Shown one piece after another: positions 2,974 to 39,053 of a stretch of DNA of 64,000 bases. Location of the stretch: assembly GCF_900188335.1 (NCBI RefSeq), contig NZ_FZOY01000008.1, positions 1-64,000 of the forward strand, written 5' to 3'. The position numbers and the translations under genes are program-made. Within the stretch, counting starts at the first letter, position 1. Every line of letters starts with the position of its first letter. The DNA is from Tropicimonas sediminicola. GTDB lineage: Bacteria; Pseudomonadota; Alphaproteobacteria; Rhodobacterales; Rhodobacteraceae. The notes beneath the pieces were generated by a model that made no database searches, had not been told where the DNA came from, and saw nothing but the letters and a program-made list of their open reading frames with translations.

Positions 2974-2977
2974 GGCC

Positions 2978-4597: not shown

Positions 4598-4629
4598 TTC
4601 ATTCTCCCTGTTGGTGGGGGTGGAAATTG

Positions 4630-4650
4630 CCCCCGACTTGCTCGCGGGGG
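4630..4650 (-). promoter_or_regulatory. Intergenic hairpin between dppB and binding-protein gene
   Basis: CCCCCG and CGGGGG arms are separated by 9 nt in the 68-bp gap between dppB and the binding-protein gene. There is no T tract, so an mRNA stabiliser or processing stop that raises binding-protein expression is more likely than a full terminator. Function is inferred. Confidence 0.45.
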
Positions 4651-4665
4651 TGGTGGTAATAAGGG

Positions 4666-5586
4666 TCAGCGCAACTTGATGCGTGGATCGATCATAGGGG
4701 TGATAAGGTCGGCCAGCAGATTGCCGAGCACGATGGCCGTGGCCGAGACCATCGTGACGCCCATGATCACGGGAATGTCGACGCGTTGGATCGCCTGCCA
4801 CGCGAGCTGGCCGATGCCGGGCCAGCCGAAGACACTCTCGACCACGACGATCCCGCCCATGAAGATCCCGATGTCGATTCCGATCATCGCGATGATGGGA
4901 AGAATGGCGTTGGGCAGCGCGTGGCGCAGCAGGATGCGGCGCCGGGTCAGGCCCTTGGCGCGGGCAGTGCGAATGTAATCCTGACGCAGCACATCGACCA
5001 TCGACGAGCGCATCATCCGGCTGTACCAGCCCGACCCCATGATCCCCAGCGTGATCGCCGGCAGGACGAGATGGGCGAAAGTCCCGTAGCCCCCGATCGG
5101 GAACCACCCAAGCTGCACCGCGAACAGGTAGAGAAGCAGGAGTCCCACCACGAACTGGGGAGCGGAAACCGCAACGAAGCTTGTGACCATCAACCCCTGA
5201 TCGAGCGGACGGCCGCGGAACACCGCGGCGACGACGCCTAGGGTAAGCCCGATCAGCAATTCGCAAACGATGCCACCCAGCATAAGAAGAAGTGTCGCCG
5301 GCAGGCGCGAAGCGATCAGCGTGGCAACCTCCGTCTTTTGCAGATAGCTGCGTCCCATGTCGCCTTGGACCAGACCGGACAGGTAGCGCCAGTACTGCAC
5401 CAGCAAGGGCTGATCGAGGCCGAGCTGATGGCGGATGTTCTCGACCGTCTGCGCCGTGGCCGAACGCCCCGCAATCTGCCGCACCGGATCGGCGGGGAGC
5501 ACGTAGAGCAGCAAAAAGGTGATGAAACTGACGCCGAGCAGGATCAGCGCGGACTGGACCAGCCGACGGGTTAGGTATCCCAGCAT
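4666..5586 (-). CDS. ABC transporter permease, DppB family
   Basis: The 306-residue integral membrane protein is a DppB/OppB-type permease (BPD_transp_1). It has the typical N-terminal helix MLGYLTRRLVQSALILLGVSF, a periplasmic segment, and five further hydrophobic helices. The cytoplasmic coupling loop TARAKGLTRRRILLRHALPNA is the EAA-type motif that contacts the ATPase. Start was set at the ATG that overlaps the dppC stop codon by one base (TGATG), rather than the longer open frame. It forms a heterodimer channel with DppC and works with the fused ATPase at the end of the operon. Confidence 0.93.
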   Translation of the reverse strand: MLGYLTRRLVQSALILLGVSFITFLLLYVLPADPVRQIAGRSATAQTVENIRHQLGLDQPLLVQYWRYLSGLVQGDMGRSYLQKTEVATLIASRLPATLLLMLGGIVCELLIGLTLGVVAAVFRGRPLDQGLMVTSFVAVSAPQFVVGLLLLYLFAVQLGWFPIGGYGTFAHLVLPAITLGIMGSGWYSRMMRSSMVDVLRQDYIRTARAKGLTRRRILLRHALPNAILPIIAMIGIDIGIFMGGIVVVESVFGWPGIGQLAWQAIQRVDIPVIMGVTMVSATAIVLGNLLADLITPMIDPRIKLR

Positions 5587-23282: not shown

Positions 23283-25301
23283 TCACGATGCCCTCCGCCG
23301 GTAATTCCAATGGCCCTTGAGATCGCCGGCGGTAAGCCGCGCATCGCGCTCGAATCCGAGCGTCTGGAGGATGCCGACCACCCGGTTACTGTCCTGGCGG
23401 GTGCAGTTGGCCGCGTCCTTGGACAGCCCCCACACCAGCACTTCGCGCGGCGTCACGGCATCCTTGTCCGCAATGTATGCCGCCACGTCTTCCTGCCAGG
23501 GGTCAGTGTCGAGGCGCGCGGCCTGCGCTTCCTTCGCAAGCGTCTCGACCTCGGGCGGCAACCACCACTTGGTGCCCTTCCGGTAGAGCGCGACCGCCTC
23601 AGCCCAGAGTTGCGACCGGTCTTGCTTGATGCGCTCGACGTCCATCCGGTCGATCCGCACCGGCCAGAAGCGCCGGTTGCCGGTCTCGTCGCGCAAATAG
23701 TGGTCGTCATTGGTCGTGCCGATGAAGACGCATTGCCGGGGGCGCCTGTCCACTTCCCTGTCATAGGACCAGCGGAATTCGTCGGTCTGCCGAGTGATGA
23801 AAGCTTTGACCGCGTCGATATCGCGCCGCGCCGCCACCAGTTCGGCAACCTCGATGATCCATTTTCCGGCGACATATTCTTGGGCGTCCTTCCGTCCCAT
23901 GTCGGGCAGGTTGTCACCGAACCAGTCGTCACCGCCGGCAAGCGCCCGGATGCCCGAAGACTTCCCGGCGCCCTGGTCGCCTTCCAGTACCAGCATGTGA
24001 TCGACCTTCACGCCCGGATGAAACGCCCGTGCAACTGCCGAGATCATCCAGCGAGCGCCCGCCTCACGGTTGAACCGCGTGTCCTCGGCGCCGCAGTAGT
24101 CGATCAGCCAACGGCCAATCCGTTTCCCGCCATCCCATTGCAGCCCTTCGAGATAGTCGGTCAGCGGATTGAAGGTGTTGCTCCTGCAAGCCCGCCGCAG
24201 AGCGGGGACCACGATAGACGCGCCCGCCTTTGGAAACCCGTTGCAGTTAAACCACCCGGTTGCCGCGGTGTAGTCGTCGTCGTTCAGATCCCGCTCGCCC
24301 TCGGTCGTGCCAGGGATCGGAGCGAGGATCATCCGCCGGCCGGTGAAGGCATTGAAGCCTAACACCCCCTGCCATTGCGGGTGCTGCGTCAGAAGCGTCT
24401 CGGCATTGTGGATGTTCCAGATCGGCCGGTCCTTGTCGTCGCGGACGAGCTGCAAGCCCTCGTGCCGGAAGGTCGGCGCGGAAAACTTCGCATATGCGCT
24501 TTCGATGCTATTTTGCAGGTTGCGATCCCAGACCGGGCAAATCGCCTGGATCAGCCCGGTTGCGAAACGTTCGCTGACGCCCTGCCCGCGCAGAGACGCC
24601 GCAATGTCCCGAGTTGCTGCGTGCTTCTGTCCGTCGGTGCTCGCCGCCAACACGAGCTGGCGATAATCCTCGGCGCCCCGCCAGACGCCGCCCATGTTGA
24701 ACTTGGACGGGCCGGCGTTGGCATTGCCTTTCTGCTCTTTCCGGCGAGGCAGCAGATCTAGAACCCATTGCGGCGCCTCGGCCACCTCGAACATCCCCGG
24801 CGGGTTTTTCCACCGGTACGGTTTGCTGGCGCCGGCCTTCACGCTCGGGGGCGCGATGACCATTCCGCCATGTGCGCGGATATCCACGCCCGGCGCCACT
24901 TCGCCCTGGCACGTTTTCGGGTCGAAGTCTTCGGGATATCTAAAGTAGACGTGCCAGGAACCGCTTGGGCTCTGCGCCTCGATTGTGTCAGGCCAATTGT
25001 CGTGTTCCTGGATCTGCTCGGCCAGCCAAGACACGCCATCCACGCCACCCTTGATGTCGCAGTCGATAACGAAGATCTCGCTTTCTTGGGTTGCGATACC
25101 GAGATTGGCGCGGGGGTGCCTGGCGAAAAGCGCCATGACTGTCTCGGGGTCGTCGGACGCTCCCCACCGCCGGCCGTCGTTATTTGCCGCGTTCTCGTAG
25201 GATAGCTTTCCGCTCGGCGGCGCGGGAAACACGTGCCAGCCGCGCTTGGCATACTCGATGGCCGCTCTGCCGATCTCGGTGAAAATTGCTTCGCTCTGCA
25301 T
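23283..25301 (-). CDS. Bifunctional prim-pol/VapE-type replication protein
   Basis: The 672-residue protein joins an N-terminal primase-polymerase domain to a C-terminal VapE-type superfamily 3 helicase/ATPase. The N-terminal domain (about residues 10-190) has the DxD pair in FVIDCDIKGG, the SxH motif in SPSGSWHVYF, and a later Asp in GVDIRAHGGMVIAPPS. The C-terminal part (about 360-600) has Walker A EGDQGAGKSS, an acidic GKWIIEVAEL segment, and FIGTTNDDHYLRDETGNRRF. It should initiate replication of the element. The start ATG overlaps the stop of an upstream short frame by one base; a GTG one codon earlier is possible. The iteron-like array lies just past its stop codon. Confidence 0.9.
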   Translation of the reverse strand: MQSEAIFTEIGRAAIEYAKRGWHVFPAPPSGKLSYENAANNDGRRWGASDDPETVMALFARHPRANLGIATQESEIFVIDCDIKGGVDGVSWLAEQIQEHDNWPDTIEAQSPSGSWHVYFRYPEDFDPKTCQGEVAPGVDIRAHGGMVIAPPSVKAGASKPYRWKNPPGMFEVAEAPQWVLDLLPRRKEQKGNANAGPSKFNMGGVWRGAEDYRQLVLAASTDGQKHAATRDIAASLRGQGVSERFATGLIQAICPVWDRNLQNSIESAYAKFSAPTFRHEGLQLVRDDKDRPIWNIHNAETLLTQHPQWQGVLGFNAFTGRRMILAPIPGTTEGERDLNDDDYTAATGWFNCNGFPKAGASIVVPALRRACRSNTFNPLTDYLEGLQWDGGKRIGRWLIDYCGAEDTRFNREAGARWMISAVARAFHPGVKVDHMLVLEGDQGAGKSSGIRALAGGDDWFGDNLPDMGRKDAQEYVAGKWIIEVAELVAARRDIDAVKAFITRQTDEFRWSYDREVDRRPRQCVFIGTTNDDHYLRDETGNRRFWPVRIDRMDVERIKQDRSQLWAEAVALYRKGTKWWLPPEVETLAKEAQAARLDTDPWQEDVAAYIADKDAVTPREVLVWGLSKDAANCTRQDSNRVVGILQTLGFERDARLTAGDLKGHWNYRRRAS

Positions 25302-25435
25302 CACACCAACCCCCGCTTATAGGCGGTGCTGGCGTGCAGCCGGCGTGCGAATTGCGAGGGCGAAACCTTTGCGGATTCAGCCCAGATCGTGCTATGTTCG
25401 CTTAGACGTTTCTCCGCGTCCTGTAAGCAATCCAC
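25301..25435 (-). CDS. Possible 44-residue protein upstream of prim-pol
   Basis: A GTG-started frame (VDCLQDAEKRLSEHSTIWAE at the N-terminus, ending AYKRGLV) terminates at a TGA that overlaps the prim-pol ATG by one base. A GGGAG sequence is 10 bp before the GTG. The frame is open much further upstream, so a longer protein or a truncated gene tail is equally possible. Small basic end suggests a regulatory peptide, but nothing is recognised. Confidence 0.3.
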   Translation of the reverse strand: MDCLQDAEKRLSEHSTIWAESAKVSPSQFARRLHASTAYKRGLV

Positions 25436-25674
25436 GCCGTTGCGGCTCCCAACCGCAGCGGCGTTTTCGTTGAACGGATCAGGAACAGCCGAGCCGCGGC
25501 CTGTGTCAGATTTGTGCCAATCGGTGGCACGGGTTTCCGATCCGTTCCGCAGAAGTTCGCACTCGTGTTCCAGACGGAGCGAAACGGATCTTGTTATTTT
25601 GTTGGGCTTTCCGTAGAGGCGTCCGTGGGACACCCCTCCCCAATGAGGGGCATATATCTGTAAGGATACCAGCA

Positions 25675-26829
25675 ATGGCGACTCAATCCCCGGCTGCGCG
25701 GCCGGCGAACCCTCGTTTTTCCTCTGGCCCCTGCGCCAAACCCCCCTCATTCACGCTCGACGCCCTGAAGGACGCCGCCCTCGGCCGGTCGCACCGCGCC
25801 GCAATCGGCAAGGCGAAGCTTTCCGACGCGATCGAGATCACCCGAGACGTGCTCGGTGTGCCCGCCGACTACCGCATCGGCATCGTGCCCGCCTCCGACA
25901 CCGGCGCGGTCGAGATGGCCATGTGGTCGCTGCTGGGGCAGCGCCCGGTCGAAATGCTGGCGTGGGAAAGCTTCGGCGCCGGCTGGGTGACCGACGTGGT
26001 CAAGCAGCTCAAGCTCGATGCCACCGTCCGGACCGCCGAATACGGCGAGATCGTCGATTTCACGCAGGTCGACTTCGACAAGGACGTCGTCTTCACCTGG
26101 AACGGCACCACCTCCGGCGTGCGCCTGCCCAACGGCAACGCGATCCCCGCCGACCGTAACGGGCTGACCATCTGCGACGCGACCTCCGCGGCCTTCGCGG
26201 TGGACCTGCCCTGGGACAAGCTCGACGTCACCACCTTCTCCTGGCAGAAGGTGCTGGGCGGCGAGGCCGCACACGGCATCCTGATCCTCAGCCCCCGCGC
26301 GGTGGCACGGCTCGAGAGCTACACCCCCGCCTGGCCGCTGCCCAAGATCTTCCGCCTGACGAAGGGCGGCAAGCTGATCGAGGGCATCTTCAAGGGCGAG
26401 ACGATCAACACGCCGTCGATGCTGGCGGTCGAGGACTACCTCTTCGCGCTCGACTGGGCGAAGTCGGTGGGCGGGCTCAAGGGCCTCATCGCCCGCGCAG
26501 ACGCCAACACCGCCGTGATCGCGCGTTTCGTCGCCGAGAACGACTGGATCGACTTCCTCGCCGCCGACCCGGCGATCCGCTCCAACACCAGCGTCTGCCT
26601 GAAGTTCACCGACGCGCGGATCAAGGACGGCGCGGCCTTTGCCAAGGCGGTGGCCAAGCGGCTCGACGCCGAGGGCGTGGCCTATGACATCGGCGCCTAC
26701 CGCGACGCCCCCGCGGGGCTGCGCATCTGGTGCGGCGCGACGGTCGAGACCTCGGATCTCGAGGCTCTGGTTCCTTGGCTGGTCTGGGCCTTCGAGGCCG
26801 AGATCCAGGCGCAGTCCGAACTCGCCTGA
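25675..26829 (+). CDS. serC: Phosphoserine aminotransferase
   Basis: The 384-residue PLP enzyme converts 3-phosphohydroxypyruvate and glutamate to phosphoserine, the second step of serine synthesis; it also serves PLP synthesis. It has the alphaproteobacterial-type SerC N-terminus ([13 protein letters not shown]), [29 protein letters not shown], and the PLP-lysine segment [15 protein letters not shown]. The ATG has AAGGA 9 bp upstream; the longer open frame upstream runs into a short GC-rich CCCCTCCCCAATGAGGGG stem and is not used. serA follows 74 bp later, the usual Rhodobacteraceae order. Confidence 0.95.
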
Positions 26830-26832
26830 CCG

Positions 26833-26872
26833 CGAATTTTCGTACGAAAATTCGGGGGCCCGCCGGCCCCCG
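26833..26872. repeat. Perfect 22-bp palindrome plus GC hairpin between serC and serA
   Basis: 26833-26854 is a perfect 22-bp palindrome, each half being CGAATTTTCGT. It runs directly into a second hairpin with CGGGGGCC and GGCCCCCG arms and loop CGCC (26853-26872). The two share two bases. This double structure lies between co-oriented serC and serA and could be a terminator/attenuator or an intergenic repeat element. Confidence 0.6.
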
Positions 26873-26903
26873 TACTCCCCCTATTCAGACAGGAGTGCCT
26901 CTC

Positions 26904-28499
26904 ATGGCCCCCAAGGTTCTCGTTTCCGACAAGCTCAGCGAAACCGCTGTCCAGATCTTCCGTGACAATGGCATCGAGGTGGATTTCCTGCCGACCCTCG
27001 GCAAGGAACCCGAGAAGCTGCTGGAATTGATCCACAACTACGACGGCCTCGCGATCCGCTCGGCCACCAAGGTGACCCCGGCCATCCTCGAGCGCGCCAC
27101 CAATCTCAAGGTGATCGGCCGCGCCGGGATCGGCGTCGACAACGTCGACATCCCGGCCGCGTCCAAGAAGGGCGTGATCGTGATGAACACGCCTTACGGC
27201 AACATGATCACCACCGCCGAGCACGCCATCGCGATGATGTTCGCCGTTGCGCGCCAGATTCCTGAGGCCAGCGCCTCCACCCATGCCGGCAAGTGGGAGA
27301 AGTCCAAGTTCATGGGCGTCGAGCTGACCGGCAAGACGCTGGGCGTGATCGGCGCGGGCAACATCGGCGGCATCGTCTGCGACCGCGCGGTCGGCCTGAA
27401 GATGAAGGTCGTGGCCTACGACCCGTTCCTCAGCGACGAGCGCGCCGCCAAGCTCGGCGTGACCAAGGTGGAACTCGACGAGCTGCTCAAGCGCGCCGAT
27501 TTCATCACGCTGCACGTGCCGCTGACTGACAAGACCCGCAACGTCCTGAGCCGCGAGAACCTCGCGAAGACCAAGAAGGGCGTCCGGATCATCAACTGCG
27601 CCCGTGGCGGCCTGGTGGACGAGGAAGCGCTGGCGGACATGCTCAAGGAAGGCCATGTCGCCGGCGCCGCCTTCGACGTCTTCGCCAAGGAACCGGCAAC
27701 CGAGAACCCGCTCTTCGGCCTGCCGAACGTGGTCTGCACGCCGCATCTCGGCGCCTCCACGACCGAGGCGCAGGAGAACGTCGCGCTGCAGGTGGCGCAG
27801 CAGATGTCGGCCTACCTGAACACCGGTGCCGTCGAGAACGCGCTCAACATGCCGTCGGTCACCGCCGAGGAAGCCAAGGTCATGGGGCCGTGGCTGAAGC
27901 TCTCCGAACATCTCGGCGCCTTCATCGGCCAGATGACGGACGAGCCGATCAAGGCGATCAACATCCTCTATGACGGCAAGGTTGCGGAGATGAACCTCGA
28001 CGCGCTCGGCTGCTCTGCCATCGCGGGCGTCATGAAGGCCTCCAACCCCGACGTGAACCTCGTCTCCGCCCCGATCCAGGCCGCCGAGCGTGGCGTTCAG
28101 GTGTCGCGCACGACGCAGGCCAAGTCGGGCGTCTTCGACGCTTTCGTCAAGCTGACTGTCGTCACCGACACCCGCGAGCGTTCCATCGCCGGGACCGTGT
28201 TCTCGGACGGCAAGCCGCGCTTCATCCAGATCAAGGGCATCAACATCGATGCCGAGATCGGGCAGCACATGCTCTACACGACCAACAAGGACGTACCGGG
28301 CATCATCGGCACGCTGGGCCGGACCATGGGCGAGAACGGCGTGAACATCGCCAACTTCACCCTCGGTCGGACCGAGCCGGGCAAGGATGCGATCGCCCTG
28401 CTCTATGTCGACGAGCCGGTGAACGACGTGGTGATCGGCAAGCTCAAGGACACGGGCCTGTTCCAGAACGTCAGCCCGCTGGAGTTCGCCGTCGCCTGA
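26904..28499 (+). CDS. serA: D-3-phosphoglycerate dehydrogenase (type I)
   Basis: The 531-residue enzyme oxidises 3-phosphoglycerate to 3-phosphohydroxypyruvate, the first step of serine synthesis. It has the substrate/NAD domains with [10 protein letters not shown] (about residue 150), catalytic Arg in [10 protein letters not shown], the Glu region, and catalytic His in [11 protein letters not shown]. An intervening ASB domain (about 320-450) and a C-terminal ACT domain ([20 protein letters not shown]) follow, the long type I layout, so serine feedback is possible. The ATG has AGGAG 8 bp upstream. Together with serC it forms the serine pathway pair. Confidence 0.96.
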
Positions 28500-28523
28500 G
28501 CGGCCATGATGGACTAGAGACAT

Positions 28524-28554
28524 CTGCGGGCGTCCCGGCACGGGGCGCCCGCAG
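28524..28554 (+). terminator. Hairpin after serA
   Basis: A strong stem CTGCGGGCGTCCCG / CGGGGCGCCCGCAG (one mismatch or bulge) with a 3-nt loop lies 25 bp past serA and just before the phosphatase gene. No T run follows, so it may be a partial terminator or 3'-end protector. Confidence 0.55.
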
Positions 28555-28575
28555 GCATCTGGAGAGAACGGGATC

Positions 28576-29316
28576 ATGCGTACCTATGCGATCGGCGACA
28601 TTCATGGGCAGCTCGAAAAGCTGAGGCGCGCCCATGCGCTGATCGAGGCCGACAAGGCCACCGTGGGGGATCCGGGTGCAACCGTCGTCCATCTCGGCGA
28701 CCTGCCGGATCGCGGCCCGGACACGAAGGGCGTGATCGACCACCTGATCCAATGCCGGGACACTGGCGCGCCGCATGTGGTATTGCTGGGCAATCACGAC
28801 CGGATGATGCGGCGCTTCCTGCATCCGGAGAAACTCAAGGACAACCTGCGGCATGACCTCGACTGGCTGTGGGAGCCACTCGGCGGACGGGCCACGCTCG
28901 CCTCCTACGGAGTCGATGTCTCGGCCGGCCGGGACGATCTGGACATCCACGCCGACGCGCTGGACGCCGTCCCCGCCAGCCACCTCGCCTTTCTCGACGA
29001 CCTGACGACGCCCTATGCGGAGGGCGCGTGCCTGTTCGTCCATGCGGGAATTCGGCCGGGCGTGCCGCTCGAACGGCAAACCCTCGACGACCTCGTCTGG
29101 ATCCGCGAACCCTTCCTGTCCGACACCCGTGATCATGGCCCGCTGATCGTGCACGGCCACACACCGGTGGACGAGGTGATGCATTGCGGCAACCGGCTGA
29201 ACCTCGACACCGGGGCGGGCTATGGCGAGGCGTTGTCGACCGTGGTCATCGAGGGGCGCGAGGTCTGGCTGCTCTCGGAGGACGGGCGGCAGCCGGTGCT
29301 GCCCTGCGGCGTCTGA
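28576..29316 (+). CDS. Calcineurin-like metallophosphatase (PrpA/ApaH-type)
   Basis: The 246-residue protein is a serine/threonine phosphatase-type metallophosphoesterase. All metal and catalytic motifs are present: GDIHG (residue 7), GDLPDRG, LLGNHD, LFVHAGIRPG and VHGHTPV. Such bacterial proteins dephosphorylate phosphoproteins or cleave diadenosine tetraphosphate; sequence alone cannot decide. GGAGAG lies 8 bp before the ATG. It follows serA after a hairpin and precedes the kinase-like cassette by about 840 bp, so a functional link with the kinase at 30155 is conceivable but not demonstrated. Confidence 0.9.
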   Translation: MRTYAIGDIHGQLEKLRRAHALIEADKATVGDPGATVVHLGDLPDRGPDTKGVIDHLIQCRDTGAPHVVLLGNHDRMMRRFLHPEKLKDNLRHDLDWLWEPLGGRATLASYGVDVSAGRDDLDIHADALDAVPASHLAFLDDLTTPYAEGACLFVHAGIRPGVPLERQTLDDLVWIREPFLSDTRDHGPLIVHGHTPVDEVMHCGNRLNLDTGAGYGEALSTVVIEGREVWLLSEDGRQPVLPCGV

Positions 29317-29722
29317 ACGGCGATCCGGACCGGACAAAACACTCGGGCAGGGTCTTTCGCAACGCTCCCCTTTTCCTCCATGGCGACTGATTCCGGGCTC
29401 TTTTCAATACGCCTCCATTCCCCCACGGAAAGCGCACAGGAAGAAAATCTGGGCGAAAAAAAGGCAAACTTCGCACCAATTGGTGGATATACTCCGAACT
29501 GTCGCCATTCGTGAACAACCGACACAGCCCGTAACAACTTGCTACTATTGTTTATCTAACTGATAAAATTAATGAATTTTTAACCCGACCGCCCCTCACC
29601 CGAGGGCACCCCCCGATCCCACTTGACCGGACGCCGGCAAAAATCAGAATGGGATATCATCGTTCCGCGATTACACGTGCGGGCGTGATTCGCGATTGAT
29701 TTAATACGAGTAGGGGGAAGTC
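29317..29722 (+). promoter_or_regulatory. AT-rich upstream region of the peptide-kinase cassette
   Basis: No gene is visible in these 406 bp. The section 29531-29583 is strikingly AT-rich for this genome (TTGTTTATCTAACTGATAAA, then TTAATGAATTTTT) and probably contains the cassette promoter; a silencer or regulator target is possible. The ATG of the small gene is preceded by GGGGGAAG. Confidence 0.4.
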
Positions 29723-30031
29723 ATGGAAGATCATAGCATCGAAAAGAATGAAGCTCTGGTTTCGCCGGCACGGCGACGCCTTCTTGCAAAAGCCGGCACC
29801 TACGCGGTGGTCACGCCGCCGGCGGTGTCCTTCATGCTGTCGACGGCTCTGGCCGGCGATAGTGTCGCCAAATCCGGCGGCGGGGACCAGCCCTGGAAGC
29901 AGCGCTGGCAAGAGCGCAAGGCGCAGCAGAAGCTGGCCAGAAAGGCCGCGAACAAGGAGGCCCGGCGCGCAGCCAAGAAGGCTGCAAACAAGGCGGCCCG
30001 CAAGGCCGCTCGCAAGGCCGCCAAGAACTGA
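29723..30031 (+). CDS. Small protein with Tat-like leader and Ala/Lys/Arg-rich tail
   Basis: The 102-residue protein opens with a polar stretch, then ARRRLLAKAGTYAVVTPPAV and a hydrophobic part ending SFMLSTALAGDSVA, resembling a twin-arginine leader. A SKSGGG-like linker follows (KSGGGDQPW). The tail from about residue 60 is an almost pure run of Lys, Arg, Ala and Asn in a period-4 to -7 pattern, as in histone-H1-like tails. Shine-Dalgarno GGGGGAAG is 5 bp before the ATG. I recall similar RRxxLAKAGxYxVVTPPxV proteins next to HprK-like kinases in alphaproteobacteria, so it is the likely substrate or precursor of the two genes downstream. Function is inferred only. Confidence 0.7.
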   Translation: MEDHSIEKNEALVSPARRRLLAKAGTYAVVTPPAVSFMLSTALAGDSVAKSGGGDQPWKQRWQERKAQQKLARKAANKEARRAAKKAANKAARKAARKAAKN

Positions 30032-30084
30032 GTCTGGGGTGACGGTGTCCCGACGCCGTCTGATGCCTGGAAAATTCTGACCAA

Positions 30085-30118
30085 GCGTGCTTCAGGACGA
30101 CGAAGCCCTGAAGCACGC
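30085..30118 (+). terminator. Strong hairpin between small gene and kinase gene
   Basis: GCGTGCTTCAGG and CCTGAAGCACGC form a perfect 12-bp stem with a 10-nt loop, midway between the small protein and the kinase. There is no T tract. A partial terminator or RNA stabiliser that keeps the small protein in excess over the enzymes would fit. Confidence 0.6.
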
Positions 30119-30154
30119 CAGAGACATGTTGGTAACGATTCCAGGCAGAACCCC

Positions 30155-31291
30155 GTGATACACACTGCGCAACAATCGCTTGAGACGTGTCCTGCCGATT
30201 TCCTGGCAGTCGCATGCACGGGCGTTCGTATCTCGCGCGTCAAGGATTCCCGGTTTCTCTTCGTCCCTGAACGGCAGGAGTTGTTCGGGGTCAGCCCGAC
30301 GACGGAACAGCTCTGGCCGTTGCTGCAGTCGGGCATCGAGACGGCGGATTTCGCCGCCAGGGCCGCAGAGCTGGGCGACGACGGGTTCGCGGTGATCGAC
30401 CAACTCGTCGCGATCGGAGCGGTACAGTACATCGCCACGGACGAGCAGCCCCTCGACGTTCACGAACGGGTCACGATCTCGGTCGGGCACACGGCGATCG
30501 GTCTCAGCTTCTCCGGACCGATCGCCCTCGCGAGGCTGCGGTGCGTGTTCCGGCATCTCGAGACTCCTGCCCTGCCGGACGCCGAGGTCGTGATCGTCGA
30601 ACGTGAAGACGGAGTCGGTATCGCGTTCTCGGGTGACGCGCCCGAATCCTACGCATGGCACGAAGCCGGACCTGCGCTGAAACTGCTGATCACCGAGCTC
30701 GCGCTGGACGCTGCCATGGGCATGACGCTCCATCTCGGCACCCTTCAGAGAGACAACGAGGCGCTGCTGCTTGTCGGCGAGCCCGGCGCCGGGAAGTCGA
30801 CGCTGTCGGTCGCCCTGGGAAGCGGTGATTTCGAGCTGTGGGGGGACGATCTGGCGGAACTGCGGCCCGATGGCCGGGTTCAGGCCCTTCCCCTGCCGGC
30901 AACGCTCAAGGATGGCGCCTGGCCCATGCTCGCGCACCTGCACCCGGAGCTGGAGGGGGGCGAAGCCTTCGTGCGGCCCGACGACAAGACCGTCAAGTAC
31001 CTGCCCCTGCCGCCTGCGACCAAGGCCCCGGTGCTTCGGGCGCGCTGCGCGCTTTCGCTCCGCAGGGACGACGCGGCGCCGCCGGGTCTTGAGCCGCTGG
31101 ACGCGAAGGACTTCATCGCCGCGATGATCGCGGGCGGATGGTCCGGCGATCACCGGCTGACGCCGGACGATTTCGACGGCCTCGCCGCCTGCGCCGACGG
31201 CATTGCGTTTTTCCGGGCGACCTATCCCGACCTCCCGACCGCGCTGTCGCTGGTCGAGGAGGCATGGCGGATCTCGGGGACGGCGCGATGA
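30155..31291 (+). CDS. PqqD-like (RRE) domain fused to HPr-kinase-like P-loop domain
   Basis: The 378-residue protein has two parts. Residues about 25-85 read as a PqqD-like fold (FLFVPERQELFGVSPTTEQL, FAARAAELGDDGFAVIDQLV, GAVQYIA), the type used as a RiPP recognition element. From about 100 onward it is an HprK-related kinase, with Walker A LVGEPGAGKSTLSVAL at about residues 205-220 and ELWGDDLAELRPDG after it. Start is GTG with a weak Shine-Dalgarno. The stop overlaps the nucleotidyltransferase start (ATGA). HprK-like kinases paired with PF14907 nucleotidyltransferases modify lasso peptides such as paeninodin. Here no lasso cyclase or protease is present, so the substrate may be the adjacent small protein. 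Confidence 0.8.
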   Translation: MIHTAQQSLETCPADFLAVACTGVRISRVKDSRFLFVPERQELFGVSPTTEQLWPLLQSGIETADFAARAAELGDDGFAVIDQLVAIGAVQYIATDEQPLDVHERVTISVGHTAIGLSFSGPIALARLRCVFRHLETPALPDAEVVIVEREDGVGIAFSGDAPESYAWHEAGPALKLLITELALDAAMGMTLHLGTLQRDNEALLLVGEPGAGKSTLSVALGSGDFELWGDDLAELRPDGRVQALPLPATLKDGAWPMLAHLHPELEGGEAFVRPDDKTVKYLPLPPATKAPVLRARCALSLRRDDAAPPGLEPLDAKDFIAAMIAGGWSGDHRLTPDDFDGLAACADGIAFFRATYPDLPTALSLVEEAWRISGTAR

Positions 31292-32325
31292 GCCCTCTGC
31301 GCCTCCCCCGGTTCCCGCCGGACCCCTCGCCCCTACGCCAGCTTGCCGCCTGCCTGCGTGGCGAAGTGAGTGCGAGCACCGATTGGCACACCTGCCTGGA
31401 GGCGGCCAACCTGCACTATGTCGCCCCGGCGCTCGGCAAGTCGCTTGAGCTGAGGCTGGCCTCCGAGGAGCTCGATCCGGAGGCGCTGCAATACCTGGAA
31501 GATCTGCGGACGCTCAACGGAGAGCGCAACCGCCGCCTTGCAGACCAGCTCGCCGAGCTTGCCCGCGCCCTCAACGAGGTCGGCGTCACGCCGATCGTCA
31601 TCAAGGGTGCGGCGATCCTCGCCGGCGCGCCGCGCCCCGAGCACTGCACCCGGATGCTGGTTGACCTCGACATTCTGGTAGAGCCCTCGGACGTCACCGC
31701 TGCCGACAAAGCGCTGCGTGGGATCGGCTACAAGATTTTCGAGGACAGCGAGGACGAGCATTCCTCCGGCAGCTACTACCGCAATCGCGATGTCGGCGCA
31801 GTGGATCTTCATTTCTGCCTCGCGGACCGTATTGCAGAGGTGATCACGCCGGAAGACCTCGCGACGCGCACCCGGGACGTTCCCTTCGGCAACGCCCGCA
31901 TCCGGATCCCGGATGCAAGCCTGCTCTTCGTGATGAACATCGCCCACGAGATGCTGCATGACGAGGTGCTGTCGAAGGGGCGGGTCAGCCTGCGCTACCT
32001 GCTGGACCTCGTCGACCTGTCCACCGACGAGACGGCCCCCCTCGACCGCGCCTGGATCGAGGCCAAGTGCGCGCACTGGAAGTTCGACCTGGCGCTCGAA
32101 CTGCAGTCCCGCATGGCCGACGAGTTGCTCGGCCTCCCGCTCGCCCCCGGCAGGAAACGCACCCGGCTCGGCGCCCTGCTGCATCGCCGGCGACTGCTGA
32201 AAGCACACAGCCCGACGCTCGACGAGCTGGAATGGACGCTCATCTGGCGCTTCAAGAACCTGCTTCGGGCGGCCCGCCTCGATCCCACGCCGCTGATTGC
32301 CCGCCGCCACCACGGCGAGCAGTAG
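31288..32325 (+). CDS. PF14907-type putative nucleotidyltransferase
   Basis: The 345-residue protein matches the uncharacterised nucleotidyltransferase family found beside HprK-related kinases. The nucleotidyltransferase core is at about residues 95-200: VTPIVIKGAAILAGAPRPEH, RMLVDLDILVEPSDV with the DxD pair, and VDLHFCL with a third acidic residue. A helical C-terminal part includes FVMNIAHEMLHDEVLSKGRV. Start ATG overlaps the kinase stop by 4 bp; an ATG 24 bp earlier is less likely. In the paeninodin cluster the homologous enzyme extends the phosphate added by the kinase. A similar two-step phosphorylation then nucleotidyl transfer is the inferred role here. Confidence 0.8.
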   Translation: MSPLRLPRFPPDPSPLRQLAACLRGEVSASTDWHTCLEAANLHYVAPALGKSLELRLASEELDPEALQYLEDLRTLNGERNRRLADQLAELARALNEVGVTPIVIKGAAILAGAPRPEHCTRMLVDLDILVEPSDVTAADKALRGIGYKIFEDSEDEHSSGSYYRNRDVGAVDLHFCLADRIAEVITPEDLATRTRDVPFGNARIRIPDASLLFVMNIAHEMLHDEVLSKGRVSLRYLLDLVDLSTDETAPLDRAWIEAKCAHWKFDLALELQSRMADELLGLPLAPGRKRTRLGALLHRRRLLKAHSPTLDELEWTLIWRFKNLLRAARLDPTPLIARRHHGEQ

Positions 32326-32382
32326 GCCGTGGCCAGCCGTCTCGATCCGCAGTGGCGATGACGCTGCAAAGCACGCGGCCGC

Positions 32383-33420
32383 TCAGCTCCAGTCGAGCAC
32401 GACCTTGCCGGAAGAACCGCCGCGCATTGTCTCGAACCCTTCGCGGAAGTCGTCCACGCCGAAGCGGTGGGTGATGACGTTGCGGATGTCGAGCCCGTTC
32501 TCCAGCATGGCGATCATCTTGTACCACGTCTCGAAGATCTCGCGGCCATAGACGCCCTTGATTGTGATCGCCTTGAAGACGATCCGCGACCAGTCCACCG
32601 GCGACTTGCCCGGCGGGATGCCGAGCAGCGCGATCCGCCCGCCCATGGTGAGGGATTCGACCATCTGGTCGAGCGCCGCCTGGTTGCCGGACATCTCCAG
32701 ACCGACGTCGAAACCCTGCTTCATGCCGAGTTCGTGGACCACGTCGGCCAGATCCTCCTCCAGCACGTTCACCGGGCGCACGTCGGCCACCTGCACGGCC
32801 AGGGCGAGGCGGTCGGGGTTCACGTCGGTGATGACCACGTGGCGCGCGCCGACGTGGCGGGCGACGGCGGCGGCCATGATACCGATCGGGCCGGCGCCGG
32901 TGATCAGCACGTCCTCGCCCACCAGGTCGAAGGAGAGCGCCGTGTGCACGGCATTGCCGAGCGGATCGAGGATCGCCCCGATCTCGTCGTCGATCCCGTC
33001 GGGCAGCGGCACGACGTTGAAGGCCGGCAGGCAGAGGTATTCGGCGAAGGCCCCCGGCACGTTGACGCCGACACCCTTTGTCTCCGGGTCGAGGTGGAAC
33101 TTGCCGGCACGGACCTGTCGCGAATGGTGGCCGATCAGGTGGCCCTCGCCCGAGCAGCGCTGACCGATGCGAAGTTCTTCCACGTCGCGGCCGATCTCGA
33201 CGATCTCGCCGGCGAATTCGTGGCCGGTCACCATCGGCACCGGCACGGTGCGCTGCGCCCACTCGTCCCAGTTCCAGATATGGATGTCGGTGCCGCAGAT
33301 CCCGGTCTTGCGGATGCGGATCAGCACGTCGTCCGGGCCGATCTCGGGCACCGGCACCTGCTCCATCCACAACCCGACCTCGGGCTTCGCCTTGACCAGC
33401 GCCTTCATCTTTTTGCTCAT
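32383..33420 (-). CDS. tdh: L-threonine 3-dehydrogenase (MDR family)
   Basis: The 345-residue zinc alcohol-dehydrogenase-family enzyme oxidises threonine to 2-amino-3-ketobutyrate, which Kbl cleaves. Catalytic zinc ligands Cys42 (GICGTD), His67 and Glu68 (GHEFAG) are intact, and the NAD site [15 protein letters not shown] is present. The four structural-zinc cysteines of E. coli Tdh are replaced: aligned positions 97, 100, 103 and 111 are Gly, Ser, Val and Asp ([17 protein letters not shown]). The start overlaps the methyltransferase stop by 4 bp, so it is third in a kbl-methyltransferase-tdh operon. Confidence 0.94.
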
Positions 33421-34025
33421 GACCCTGGGCCCTTCTTCTGCAATGCAAGCCAGGTCCAGGTGATCCCGGCGGCAATGTTTTCCTGCTGGAGCGAGGGCGC
33501 GGCCGCCTCCCGAGCGAGCGACAGACCTGCGGCCTCCGCCATTTCGATCTCCTCGGTCGGATCGAGGGTGTAGACCGGCTGGCCGCCGTGGATGGCCCCG
33601 TGCCGGAGCGACAGGACCAGAACCCCGTTCGGTTCCAACAGCGCGGCGACGCGACCATAGGCGGCGCGGCGAGCCTCCGGCGGCAGGTGGTGCCAGACCG
33701 CGACCGCGAGCACGATGTCGAACGTCCCCGCGACTCCCGCCAGCTCGGGGAGCTGCGCGGCGAGACAGACCGCATCGGGCACCCGTGCCGAGATGGCGTC
33801 CCGGAAGGCCACGACCGGCTCCGCCGCCGTCACCGGGTGGCCGCGCGCCGCGAACCAGGCGAGGTCACGGCCACTGCCTGCCCCGATATCGAGAACTGTC
33901 GCCGGGGGCGGCGGCAGAAGGTCGGCCACGGGCGCAAAGAGGTCGTCCGCCGAGACGGCGTCGTATCGATGGCGCAACGCCTCCGAATGGGCTTCGTAGA
34001 TCCCGATGGCCGCGTGATCGCTCAC
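33417..34025 (-). CDS. SAM-dependent class I methyltransferase
   Basis: The 202-residue protein is a Rossmann-type methyltransferase. Motif I is [20 protein letters not shown] near residue 47, followed by an acidic motif II (TAAEPVVAF), [20 protein letters not shown] and [12 protein letters not shown]. The GTG start overlaps the kbl stop (GTGA), and the stop overlaps the tdh start (ATGA); the kbl-tdh pair is therefore interrupted by this gene. Substrate is unknown. A link to threonine/glycine metabolism is suggested only by co-translation. Confidence 0.85.
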
Positions 34026-35215
34026 TGGACCACGCCCGTTTCCCGCCCGGCCTTGCCGAAAGCGTCGAGTGCCCGGTCGAGGTCCGCGCGGGTCAGGGCG
34101 GCGTTCATCTGCGTCCGGATCCGCGCCGTGCCGCGCGGCACGACCGGGAAGAAGAATCCGGCCACGTAGACGCCGTGCTCGTAGAGCCGCGCCGCCATGT
34201 CCTGGCTGAGCTTCGCATCGCCCAGCATCACCGGCACGATCGGGTGCTCGCCGGGCAACAGCTCGAAGCCGAGGGACTCGAGCCCCGCCCGCCAGTAGGC
34301 GGCATTGTCGAACAGTTGCGCCCGCAGGGCGTCTCCTTCCTCCACGATCCTCAGAGCCTCCAGCCCGGCCGCCACCACGGACGGCGGCAGCGAATTGGAG
34401 AAGAGATAGGGGCGCGCCCGCTGGCGGAGAAGGTCCACCACCGCCTGCGGCCCCGCGATATATCCGCCGATCGCCCCGCCAAGCGCCTTCCCGAGCGTGC
34501 CGGTCAGGATGTCGACCTTGTCGGCGACCCCGTGGTGATGCGGCGTGCCCCGGCCCTGCGGCCCCATGAACCCGGTGGCATGGCAATCGTCCACCATCAC
34601 CAGCGCCTCGTAGCGTTCGGCGAGCGCGGTGATCTCGGGCAGCTTCGCGAGGTAGCCGTCCATCGAGAACACGCCGTCGGTGGCGATCATGATGTGCCGC
34701 GCGCCGCTGTCACGCGCCGCCCTGAGCTGCGCCTCCAGCTCGTCCATGTCGGAATTGGCGTAGCGATAGCGGCGCGCCTTGCAGAGCCGGATGCCGTCGA
34801 TGATCGAGGCGTGGTTCAGCGCGTCGGAGACAATCGCGTCCTCCTCGCCCAGAAGCGGCTCGAACAGCCCGCCGTTCGCGTCGAAACAGGCGGCGAAGAG
34901 GATCGCGTCGTCCTTGCCGAGAAACCGCGCGAGCGCCTGTTCGAGCTCCCGGTGCAGCGGCTTGGTGCCGCAGATGAAGCGCACCGAGGCCATGCCGAAA
35001 CCGTCCCGGTCCAGCGACGTCTTGGCGGCGGCGACGAGCCGCGGATCGTCTGCGAGGCCGAGATAGTTGTTGGCGCAGAGGTTCAGCATGTCGCGCCCGG
35101 CGACGTCGATATGCCCACCCTGCGGCGAGTCGATGGGACGTTCGCGCTTCAGCAGGCCCTGGGCCTCGATATCCTGAAGCGTCCGGGAAAGGTGGCTGGC
35201 GAAGTCGGGCGTCAT
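34022..35215 (-). CDS. kbl: 2-amino-3-ketobutyrate CoA ligase (glycine C-acetyltransferase)
   Basis: The 397-residue PLP enzyme cleaves 2-amino-3-ketobutyrate with CoA to glycine and acetyl-CoA, completing threonine degradation with Tdh. It has [69 protein letters not shown], and the PLP lysine in [16 protein letters not shown]. The ATG has AGGAGG 6 bp upstream. It heads the operon and is divergent from a marR-type gene 124 bp away, which is the likely regulator. Confidence 0.96.
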
Positions 35216-35339
35216 GAGGCCTCCTGCGGGTTGGCGGCAGTCTGGCGCATCGTGTCCGGTTTCGCACCGGAAGGCGAGCCCGCTTGACCATTTCGCCCGC
35301 TTGACGCAGCTAGGGCGCGACAGACGAAAGGCACACGGC

Positions 35340-35768
35340 ATGAGCGACTTCGACCTCGACAGCTTCCTGCCCTACCGGCTGGCGGTCCTTGCCGGACAGG
35401 TCAGCCGCGAGTTCTCCCGCCGCTACAACGAGCGCTTCGGCATCTCGCGCCCGGAATGGCGGGTGGTTGCGCACCTGGCGCAGTCGGGGCCGGCCAGTGT
35501 CGGCGAGATCCACCAGCGCGTCGACATGGACAAGTCGCGCGTCTCCCGCGCCGCGACGCGGCTGGAGCAGGCGGGCTATATCCGCAAGGACGCGCACCCG
35601 ACCGACGGCCGCCTGGTGACCCTTCGGCTGACCCAGGCGGGGCGGGCGATGATGCAGGAACTGAGCGAGATGGCCCGCGCCTACCAGGCCGAGCTGACCG
35701 AACGCCTCGGCCCGCAGGCCGAGCAGCTCGACCTCGCCATGCAGAAACTTTACGTCAGCGAGGACTGA
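35340..35768 (+). CDS. MarR family transcriptional regulator
   Basis: The 142-residue protein has the MarR winged helix: [40 protein letters not shown], then the wing [19 protein letters not shown]. Start was set at the ATG giving [20 protein letters not shown], the usual helix-1 entry. Its divergent position to kbl suggests control of the threonine operon; the thiolase downstream in the same direction (69 bp) may be in the same transcript. Ligand unknown. Confidence 0.9.
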
Positions 35769-35837
35769 GGGGCGGCGAGAGCCCTCCCACCATCGGCGCG
35801 CGCGGGCTATGCTGGCGGCTGGATGAGGGAGGATTCC

Positions 35838-37013
<1,176 letters not shown>

Positions 37014-37016
37014 GGC

Positions 37017-39053
37017 TCAGCGCAGCAAAACGGAGGCGCGCGCGGCCATGCCATGCGCGTCTATCACCGAGAGGGTGACGAAGCCCTTGCCCGGGCTCTC
37101 GACGAAACTCTCCCGACTGCGCGCCTGCAGCACCAGCGGCGCGCCGTTGACCAGCCATGTGAACGGCGGCGTGCCGTCCCGCACCTTGAGCACCAGACCG
37201 TCCGGCGCCTCGATCTCGGCGCCATCGGGCGGAAAGGCGAGCTTGGGCGCTTCCGGCGGCGGCTGGAAGGCGGCGGAACGGGAGCGGAAGCGCTGCAGCG
37301 GCTGCGGCAGGCTGGCCGTCGGCAGCAGCAGGACCCCGTCCGGTGGCGGCGGCAGGGGCTCGGCGCGCGGCGCGATGGTGTCGAAGACCCGGAAGAGCAG
37401 CGGCGCGGCCAGCCCGCCGCCGAAGGCGCCGGGAACGGAGGTTCCGTCCGGCCTCCCGAGCCAGACGCCGACGACATGCCGCCCGTCGAACCCGATCGCC
37501 CAGGCGTCCCGGTGGCCATAGCTCGTGCCCGTCTTGTAGGCGAGCTTGACCCGCGCGGCGTGCGGCGGGGGGGCGATGCCAGCAAGGATATGGCCGACCT
37601 CCCAGGCCGCTTCCTCGGAGAGCACCTGCTTCACGGGTGCGGACGGCACGTCCGAGGCATAGCGAAGCGCCATCGCCTCCCCACCGCGGGCCAGCGCCCC
37701 GTAGAGCCGCACCAGATCCTCCAGTGTCACGCCCACGCCCCCGAGCGCGACCGCGAGGCCCGGCGCGCCCTCCGGCAGCACCGGCGTCACCCCAGCCCGC
37801 CGCAGCCGCGCCATCAGCCGCGCCGGGCCTATGGCCTCGGTCAGCGCCACGGCGGGAATGTTGAGCGACAGCTCCAGCGCCTGCCGGACCCGGATCGTGC
37901 CGCGATAAAGGCCGTCGAAATTCACCGGGGCGTAGCCGCCGAACGCGGTCGGGCGATCCTCGATTAGGGTTTCCGGATGGGCGAGGCCGAGGTCGAAGGC
38001 GAGCCCGTAAATCAGCGGCTTCAGGGTCGAGCCGGGCGAGCGCAGGGCGCGGGTCATGTCGAGCCAGCCGCCGCGCCGCTCGTCGAGGTAGCCGGCCGAC
38101 CCGACACTGGCCAGCACCTCGCCGCTCCGATGATCCGCCACGAGGATCGCCGCCGAAAGCTGCTCGCCGGCCGTCCCGGCGGTCTCGGCGGCCAGCCGTT
38201 CCAGCGCCGCCTGCAGGTTGCGGTCGAGCGTGGTATCGTGGCTTCCCCGCAGCGGTTGGTCTGCGCGCAGCCTTTCGGCCAGATGCGGCGCGAAGGCCGG
38301 GAAGCTGCGCCGGATCGCCGGAACCGGCGTGGTCCGTGCCGCCGCCGCGGCCTCTGTCGCGAGCACGCCGGCGCCTTCCATCCGCGACAGAACCCGGTCG
38401 CGGGCGATCGTCGCCGAGCCCGTGTCGCGGTCCGGACGGCGGCTCGCCGGCGCCTGCGGGATCGCCACCAGCAGCGCCGCTTCGGCGGGGGTGAGGCGCC
38501 TCGGCTCCTTTCCGAAATAGGCCAGCGTCGCGGCGCGCACGCCCTCGAGGTTACCGCCGAAGGGTGCCCGGTCGAGATAAAGCGACAGGATCCGTTCCTT
38601 GGAAAGGCGCCGTTCCAGCGCAAGCGCCACCCGCATCTGCCGCAGTTTGCCCTTCATCTGGCCGGTGGTGCCGTCCTCCAGCAGCCGCGCCACCTGCATC
38701 GTCAGGGTCGAACCGCCGGAGACGACCTCGCCGTTCCGGACCGCCTGTCCGGCGGCACGCATCATCGCGATCCAGTCCACCCCGCCGTGCCGGTAGAAAC
38801 GCTTGTCCTCGAACGCGACCAGCATCTCCAGGTAGAGCGGGTCCACGCCGCCCGGCCGGCTGGCCAGGCGCCAGCGGCCATCACCGACGGTGAAGGCGCG
38901 GAGCAGCCGGCCCTCCCGGTCGAGCACCTCCACCGAGGTCTCGCTGACCAGCGCCGGCAGGTCGGTGGCGTCGACCCAGGCGTCGAAGCCATCGCGCGCC
39001 GCCGCACCCAGAAACAGCAGCAGCGCCAGCAGAAGCAGGCCACGCCGCTTCAC
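37017..39053 (-). CDS. pbpC: Penicillin-binding protein 1C
   Basis: The 678-residue bifunctional peptidoglycan synthase has a short N-terminal membrane anchor (LLLLALLLFLGAAA). A GT51 transglycosylase domain follows (FEDKRFYRHGGVDWIAMMRA, GGSTLTMQVARLL, LDRAPFGGNLEGV), then a transpeptidase domain with SPGSTLKP (SxxK), SLN and KTGTSYG. A PBP1C C-terminal beta domain ends the protein. The GTG start overlaps the alpha-2-macroglobulin stop by 4 bp. The pairing is a known bacterial theme: the macroglobulin traps proteases that enter through damaged envelope while PBP1C repairs the wall. Confidence 0.95.
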   Translation of the reverse strand: MKRRGLLLLALLLFLGAAARDGFDAWVDATDLPALVSETSVEVLDREGRLLRAFTVGDGRWRLASRPGGVDPLYLEMLVAFEDKRFYRHGGVDWIAMMRAAGQAVRNGEVVSGGSTLTMQVARLLEDGTTGQMKGKLRQMRVALALERRLSKERILSLYLDRAPFGGNLEGVRAATLAYFGKEPRRLTPAEAALLVAIPQAPASRRPDRDTGSATIARDRVLSRMEGAGVLATEAAAAARTTPVPAIRRSFPAFAPHLAERLRADQPLRGSHDTTLDRNLQAALERLAAETAGTAGEQLSAAILVADHRSGEVLASVGSAGYLDERRGGWLDMTRALRSPGSTLKPLIYGLAFDLGLAHPETLIEDRPTAFGGYAPVNFDGLYRGTIRVRQALELSLNIPAVALTEAIGPARLMARLRRAGVTPVLPEGAPGLAVALGGVGVTLEDLVRLYGALARGGEAMALRYASDVPSAPVKQVLSEEAAWEVGHILAGIAPPPHAARVKLAYKTGTSYGHRDAWAIGFDGRHVVGVWLGRPDGTSVPGAFGGGLAAPLLFRVFDTIAPRAEPLPPPPDGVLLLPTASLPQPLQRFRSRSAAFQPPPEAPKLAFPPDGAEIEAPDGLVLKVRDGTPPFTWLVNGAPLVLQARSRESFVESPGKGFVTLSVIDAHGMAARASVLLR

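Follow-up and report, generated by a model that had tools for sequence, protein, structure and literature searches.

A candidate modified-peptide cassette with a twin-arginine leader, an HprK-like kinase and a nucleotidyltransferase in Tropicimonas sediminicola

The first 64,000 nucleotides of contig NZ_FZOY01000008.1 of Tropicimonas sediminicola (hereafter the window) hold, at 29723-32325, a gene for a small protein followed by genes for a kinase and a nucleotidyltransferase, which raises the question of whether the two enzymes act on the small protein and what they would make of it. An earlier note on this DNA had described a 102-aa protein with a twin-arginine (RR) leader, a kinase, and a PF14907 protein whose start overlaps the kinase end as ATGA, and we found all three in the sequence as described. 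We consider with moderate confidence that the best explanation of the whole is a cassette that makes a modified, exported peptide.

The first gene (29723-30031, +), downstream of AGGGGGAA, a plausible ribosome site as read from the sequence, encodes a leader of residues 1-49, with R17-R18-R19 in its N-terminus, and a predicted mature part of residues 50-102, 36% of which are Lys/Arg. We laid out 37 distinct strong leaders (profile E<1e-8, weaker ones excluded) without gaps from RR to the Ser-Gly region. Their consensus was RRxFLxxxGkfAxxTPPAVxxLLSTxxxxxAxAxSG, with the Ser two places further on in three, and its portion up to AxA corresponds to the conserved leader of the window protein, which resembles signals of twin-arginine translocation (Tat) and runs from R17-R18 to A49 (29771-29869, +). 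Counted from RR, G +8 was kept in 36/37 leaders, A +11 in 35/37, P +15 in 33/37, A +30 in 31/37 and A +32 in 30/37. Among 23 members non-redundant by tail (253 pairs), mean identity was 43.6% in the leader vs 25.4% in the tail, the latter the same as for shuffled tails (25.4%). Tail extremes were 72% Lys/Arg on a Leisingera plasmid (L055), 66% Asp/Glu (L039) and 61% Gly (L032); tails in L032 and L047 were Gly/His-rich, that of L119, whose copies are unlinked to a kinase, had six Cys, and the two neighbouring precursors of L039 had leaders 82% alike with one acidic and one basic tail. Judged by sequence, a conserved leader with a variable tail is the pattern of precursors of ribosomally synthesized and post-translationally modified peptides (RiPPs). 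The letters of the h-region need not be conserved in ordinary signal peptides; they are conserved here along with the rest of the leader, which therefore suggests a specific reader, presumably a RiPP recognition element (RRE).

Several tails merit description in their own right. The L039 precursors (3129-3374 and 3594-3815) carry an RGRRGRR-basic and an Asp/Glu-rich tail, possibly a charge-complementary pair. L149 has three different RR-leader precursors in tandem (2207-3058, -) ahead of one kinase/nucleotidyltransferase pair, with Ser at +34 in 3/3, and L119 has three Cys-rich RR-leader proteins in tandem (4427-5338, -), the kinase of that genome lying on a separate contig (L118). By eye, a tail motif like GNNGxGNGxxDGxPGxSG recurs in L116, L117, L123, L124, L156, L161 and L165-L169, which runs counter to the otherwise free variation of tails.

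A reader of this kind very probably forms the N-terminus of the kinase, a 378-aa protein with a GTG start (30155-31291, +) in which an RRE/PqqD-like domain, at about residues 22-100 (30218-30454, +), is fused to an HprK-like one. A profile of the kinase alignment matched lasso peptide RREs in the PDB (TbiB1, 5v1u, E 2.8e-5; TfuB1, 9.3e-5; 9x90, 0.0097), and hhalign against six discrete PqqD proteins gave P 1.3e-7 and a probability of 94%. PF05402 scored above cut-off in three of six fused kinases scanned (L057 2.9e-8, L039 3.2e-9, L004 1.8e-6), with L005 under cut-off and no match for L055 and L056. The PqqD-HprK fusion put forward in the earlier note thus holds through relatives of the window kinase. 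An alignment of PqqD domains (A6) was of poor quality and was dropped. The C-terminal model of the kinase matches HprK/PEPCK folds, and the P-loop GEPGAGKST lies at 30776-30802 (+). H193 and K214, the P-loop Lys, were kept in 12/12 aligned kinases, D231 in 10/12 (Glu in two) and D232 in 11/12 (Glu in one); by analogy, we take these to be the His-Lys-Asp-Asp set reported as essential in lasso kinases (PMC9266682; here and below, papers on lasso peptides and on LPP are cited from parts of their texts). TIGR04352 ('HprK-related kinase A') matched the window kinase at E 1.2e-12, with 47.5 bits vs a 200-bit cut-off. The third gene (31288-32325, +) encodes a 345-aa nucleotidyltransferase that matched PF14907 (NTP_transf_5) at E 1.9e-34 (119.8 vs a curated cut-off of 31.2 bits), and R122, D126 and D128 of its R-x3-D-x-D motif were invariant in 11/11 aligned relatives.

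The earlier note had staked its proposal on the small protein accompanying the kinase in other genomes, and it does. With our own profiles (10 rows for the leader, 12 for the kinase, 11 for the nucleotidyltransferase), we compared loci gathered by kinase, PF14907 or leader searches. Among 30 loci with a kinase at E<1e-45 (29 without L162, a duplicate of L058), 28 had a homologue of the RR-leader protein no more than 1.3 kb away, and the nucleotidyltransferase profile matched in 29, L121 being the single exception. The leader was found in 18/20 loci that were not among the leader-profile rows (the duplicate L162 among them), and the two misses of the leader profile were L005, with an RR protein by eye, and L118, on a short contig of a genome (G234) with leaders elsewhere. 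The leader profile matched 0/11 loci with a kinase between 1e-45 and 1e-20, nine of which have discrete genes of the HPr-rel-A type described below. As a control we used 18 other PF14907 loci in which the best kinase-profile E was 6e-17 or weaker or there was no match (L054, with a fragment, was excluded); either leader profile, the one above or a second described below, matched 0/18 of these, which are a fresh control for the second profile only, their lack of the first leader family having been known beforehand.

Across a class-wide sample of 289 Alphaproteobacteria genomes, in which the kinase search scored at most six candidates per genome, the leader was found in 17 genomes at E≤1e-3, of which seven had it at E≤2e-6; nine of the ten weaker matches lay within open frames of at least 315 codons. 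A full-length kinase (E≤1e-39) occurred in five genomes, all within the seven leader genomes. Without G000, which has rows in both profiles, 4/4 kinase genomes fell among 6/288 leader genomes, with a chance of about 5e-8 when computed by hand and not corrected for kinship. Within the order of G242, two of the 4 genomes searched had leaders, in both cases adjoining a kinase, and in G277 the kinase and nucleotidyltransferase stood on a different contig from the leader, cut by the contig end. A genome-contig search for related loci with the window kinase alone gave no match; the alignment-based search gave two distant gammaproteobacterial loci, one of which (L136) had an RR protein, PqqD, HprK-like and nucleotidyltransferase-like gene in a row. 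The association of the precursor with the enzymes is, in our judgement, almost certain. This co-location and the leader/tail pattern also give strong support to the suggestion of the earlier note that the pair modifies the small protein by way of an RRE.

A second group of loci has enzyme types in common with the window and an RR-leader protein nearby. TIGR04352 and TIGR04353 ('PqqD family peptide chaperone') are the NCBIfam names for members of the HPr-rel-A system. TIGR04353 was present at E≤1e-5 in 55/299 genomes phylum-wide and had no match at that threshold in the T. sediminicola genome, which has the fused RRE instead. We examined 30 of 60 listed TIGR04353 places and built a second leader profile from 11 sequences of 13 loci; a simple RR pattern scan had given false matches, so our counts are based on profiles. 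An RR-leader protein lay in a stretch of ~3.2 kb around PqqD in 27/30 TIGR04353 loci (13/13 profile-building, 14/17 other). Of the remaining three, L174 had an RR protein by eye and L197 none, while L200 had, by eye, a probable radical SAM gene adjoining the TIGR04353 match and no RR protein, resembling another peptide cassette. The second profile also matched 8/9 further HPr-rel-A-type loci, the miss (L137) being cut by a contig. HPr-rel-A differs from the window in that PqqD is discrete and the RR proteins are mostly longer, and the window kinase is far under the TIGR04352 cut-off. In cross-matches, the first leader profile hit 1/39 HPr-rel-A loci and the second 0/15 window-type loci; the two leader types are separate branches or convergent.

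Where, then, would the modification fall? A Ser or Tyr stood just past the likely signal-peptidase site in 37/37 strong leaders (Ser 34, Tyr 3), as Ser +34 in 31, Tyr +34 in two, Ser +36 in three and Tyr +36 in one. Eight weaker complete leaders included five with Ser +34 and one with Tyr +36, and in the divergent L005 A-S-A is followed by Ser at +34. In the window protein this residue is S51 (29873-29875, +), and there, as in L047, it is the sole Ser/Thr/Tyr of the predicted mature part. Phosphorylation of the precursor is likely, and S51 is somewhat favoured as its site. The window protein has an RRxFL-type n-region, an h-region and S-V-A in place of A-x-A, and TatC is present in the genome. 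Tat export is reasonably probable. In the mechanism we propose, the RRE-like N-terminus of the kinase would read the leader of the 102-aa precursor and the HprK-like domain would phosphorylate, perhaps several times, a Ser bordering the point at which the leader is cut, S51 being the likeliest. The PF14907 enzyme might then elaborate the phosphate with a nucleotidyl or sugar-phosphate group; we see an even balance for and against its acting there. In pseudomycoidin, a related NTP transferase was required for hexoses on phospho-Ser (PMC9266682, PMC8498205). The Tat system would export the precursor and signal peptidase would cleave it behind A49 or thereabouts, so that a strongly basic peptide of 53 residues remains, its modified Ser at position 2. 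By analogy we would guess at a surface or extracellular role.

A number of observations weigh against this proposal. Searched alone in Pfam, the window kinase (P0002) had no PF05402 match, and the part of the earlier note that ascribed a PqqD-like domain to it did not stand on that sequence by itself. AlphaFold of the kinase (three sequences) gave a good C-terminal part and pLDDT (predicted local distance difference test) <50 over residues 1-178, while the N-terminal domain alone, modelled from a single sequence, had a mean of 56.6 and no Foldseek match <1e-3 (TbiB1 at E 9.9); these models were not used for the RRE claim. RR anchored the leader layout, so its presence in 37/37 is not an independent result. 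Tyr occupies the proposed site in 2/37 leaders, both from L039, two of the eight weaker leaders (L121 and one of L119) lack a hydroxyl residue at both +34 and +36, and most other tails contain further Ser/Thr/Tyr, so the site is not singled out in every member. In the LPP system of Bacillota (Popov et al. 2026, PMC13381572), core Ser3 of LppA is polyphosphorylated and the kinase LppK did not phosphorylate S3T or S3Y variants, yet Tyr occurs in some window-type leaders; the LPP-type [Y/W]xxP leader motif occurred in 1/37 leaders (L116), outside the conserved leader part. The linkage of genes is also imperfect. The distant fused kinases L122 and L170, in the 1e-45 to 1e-20 range, had no leader match, a kinase match at E≤1e-10 was found in 2/9 genomes of the genus including T. 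sediminicola itself, G269 has a leader without PF14907, and the leaders of G234 are unlinked to the enzymes. Stand-alone copies of the leader family occur on Sinorhizobium/Bradyrhizobium plasmids (L153-L157), including pSymB of S. meliloti 1021, with no kinase or nucleotidyltransferase near them in 12-kb stretches.

In a rival reading, the kinase/nucleotidyltransferase pair acts on another substrate (a glycan, a lipid or an HPr-like protein) and the RR protein, encoded in the same operon, is secreted as a structural or regulatory partner. Some neighbours fit it, the cassette of L041 being flanked by a gene of GDP-mannose type on one side and a Wzz/tyrosine-kinase gene on the other, that of L055 adjoining a polysaccharide export gene and that of L058 lying near a lipopolysaccharide gene. 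Fusion of an RRE-like domain to the kinase and conservation of the leader from end to end instead suit peptide recognition, ten neighbours scanned from nine loci had no recurring family except methyltransferases of two kinds, and the ten scanned window neighbours contained no polysaccharide gene. We regard this reading as unlikely, and a polysaccharide role was not adopted, as such neighbours occur in a few loci and, in the window, not among the ten scanned.

The composition of the window tail would itself fit a histone H1-like DNA binder, with the adjoining enzymes regulating it or unrelated, as the earlier note had offered by way of alternative. This was weakened because homologous leaders bear quite different tails, Gly/His-rich (L032, L047) or acidic (L039) in the same gene context and Cys-rich in the unlinked L119, and the Tat-type leader speaks for export; we consider a DNA binder very improbable. 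Alternatively, the hydrophobic stretch with Pro-Pro in the leader could be an uncleaved membrane anchor, cleavage being a prediction, with the modified tail as a charge-variable surface at the cytoplasmic or periplasmic face. The A-x-A ahead of the conserved Ser in most homologues argues for cleavage, and we judge an anchor distinctly doubtful. A modified peptide that is exported and cleaved remains the reading we prefer.

Between the precursor and kinase genes of this preferred cassette lies a stem-loop region (30032-30154, +) with a folding minimum free energy of -59.6 kcal/mol and a z of -6.4, 0/200 shuffles being as stable. Four other loci with short gaps had weaker z values (-2.3, -2.4, -1.2 and -2.1), and two window control stretches had -0.7 and -1.7. 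There was no second copy of the stretch in the genome and no Rfam match across 29300-31300. The region is a possible attenuator; plausibly, it is a partial terminator or processing site setting the precursor above the enzymes.

Ten window neighbours (23283-39053) were put through a family scan at E≤1e-8. They include a Prim-Pol/VapE protein, 3-phosphoglycerate dehydrogenase, a metallophosphatase, a zinc dehydrogenase and a methyltransferase, with an aminotransferase-fold enzyme, MarR, a thiolase, a penicillin-binding protein and one open reading frame (ORF) without a family as the others. No SpI-like peptidase, MsbA-like transporter, macrolactam cyclase or B2 protease was found among these ten, one of which had no family match. 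The Prim-Pol/VapE-like primase-helicase (23283-25304, -) lies near the phosphoglycerate dehydrogenase gene; such primase-helicases are typical of mobile elements. In L032, of the same genus, the cassette is surrounded by what are, by eye, the same metallophosphatase and dehydrogenase as in the window, and by a methyltransferase, so the two cassettes have their site in common. The cassette is no orphan, as it had been called, since two further PF14907 loci bring the genome to three cassettes. L004 has a 79-aa RR-leader protein and a PqqD-HprK protein and stands, by eye, ahead of a Wzz/tyrosine-kinase-like gene; L005 has a 94-aa RR-leader protein adjoining a single nucleotidyltransferase-PqqD-HprK fusion.

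These results provide a concrete candidate substrate for enzymes that NCBI names only as the HPr-rel-A system, extend the LPP idea beyond Bacillota, and predict one residue that can be tested, S51, the only hydroxyl acceptor of the predicted mature part. If the proposal is true, this would be a RiPP route in which Tat and signal peptidase are borrowed to export and cleave the peptide, and 'hypothetical proteins', including some in the tractable symbiont Sinorhizobium meliloti, could be read as modified peptides. Tentatively, and with slightly more doubt than belief, we suggest a large and unreported class of RiPPs in Pseudomonadota, whose twin-arginine signal peptide doubles as an RRE-read leader. 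In the cytoplasm, an HprK-like kinase and a PF14907 enzyme would phosphorylate and then nucleotidylate or glycosylate a Ser next to the cleavage site, Tat and housekeeping signal peptidase would serve as exporter and protease, and behind the one conserved head the tails (basic, acidic, Gly-rich or Cys-rich) would evolve freely.

We found no paper describing the window system in the open-licence literature, a weak negative given that searches by term had not brought up the LPP paper either. For a cassette of HprK, PqqD and nucleotidyltransferase the same literature yielded lasso papers at most, on RiPPs with a twin-arginine leader it yielded unrelated papers, and on PF14907, HprK-related kinases or HPr-rel-A none, likewise weak negatives. 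The main texts of two RRE papers (PMC7470986, PMC12710340) do not mention a kinase or HprK. Among known systems, the SynChlorMet cassette has PqqD-like and HprK-like members (ScmC and ScmD, by name) as the window does. SynChlorMet cassettes carry radical SAM enzymes, unlike the window neighbours. Lasso peptides such as paeninodin and pseudomycoidin share the HprK-like kinase, which phosphorylates a precursor Ser, and a nucleotidyltransferase homologue that follows (PMC8498205, PMC9266682); as described there, they need a cyclase and B2 protease and the Ser is C-terminal, none of which applies to the window system. The closest likeness is to LPP (PMC13381572), which combines an RRE, an HprK kinase, an NTP transferase, an SpI-like peptidase and an MsbA-like exporter, has no cyclase of its own, and has precursors with a conserved N-terminus and a highly variable C-terminus. 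Deletion of its NTP transferase gave no visible change, LPPs were called restricted to Bacillota, and a biofilm role was guessed by the authors. Both systems join an RRE, an HprK-like kinase and an NTP transferase to variable-tail precursors with signal-peptidase-type cleavage, predicted in the case of the window, and the hydroxyl residue at the leader/tail border is comparable with Ser3 of LppA. LPP has a discrete RRE, its own peptidase and exporter, and the [Y/W]xxP motif, whereas the window system belongs to Pseudomonadota and has an RRE fused to the kinase, a Tat-type RR leader and, in the ten neighbours scanned, neither a peptidase nor an exporter of its own; the Tat leader and a housekeeping peptidase would replace those of LPP. 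The 'different system' of the earlier note is not supported in a strong sense, as HPr-rel-A was already named and LPP was published in 2026. With the logic and the enzymes of LPP but without its peptidase, exporter and YxxP motif, the window system works like LPP and is not a member; it is a Pseudomonadota variant, with a Tat leader and a fused RRE-kinase, of an LPP-like modified-peptide system.

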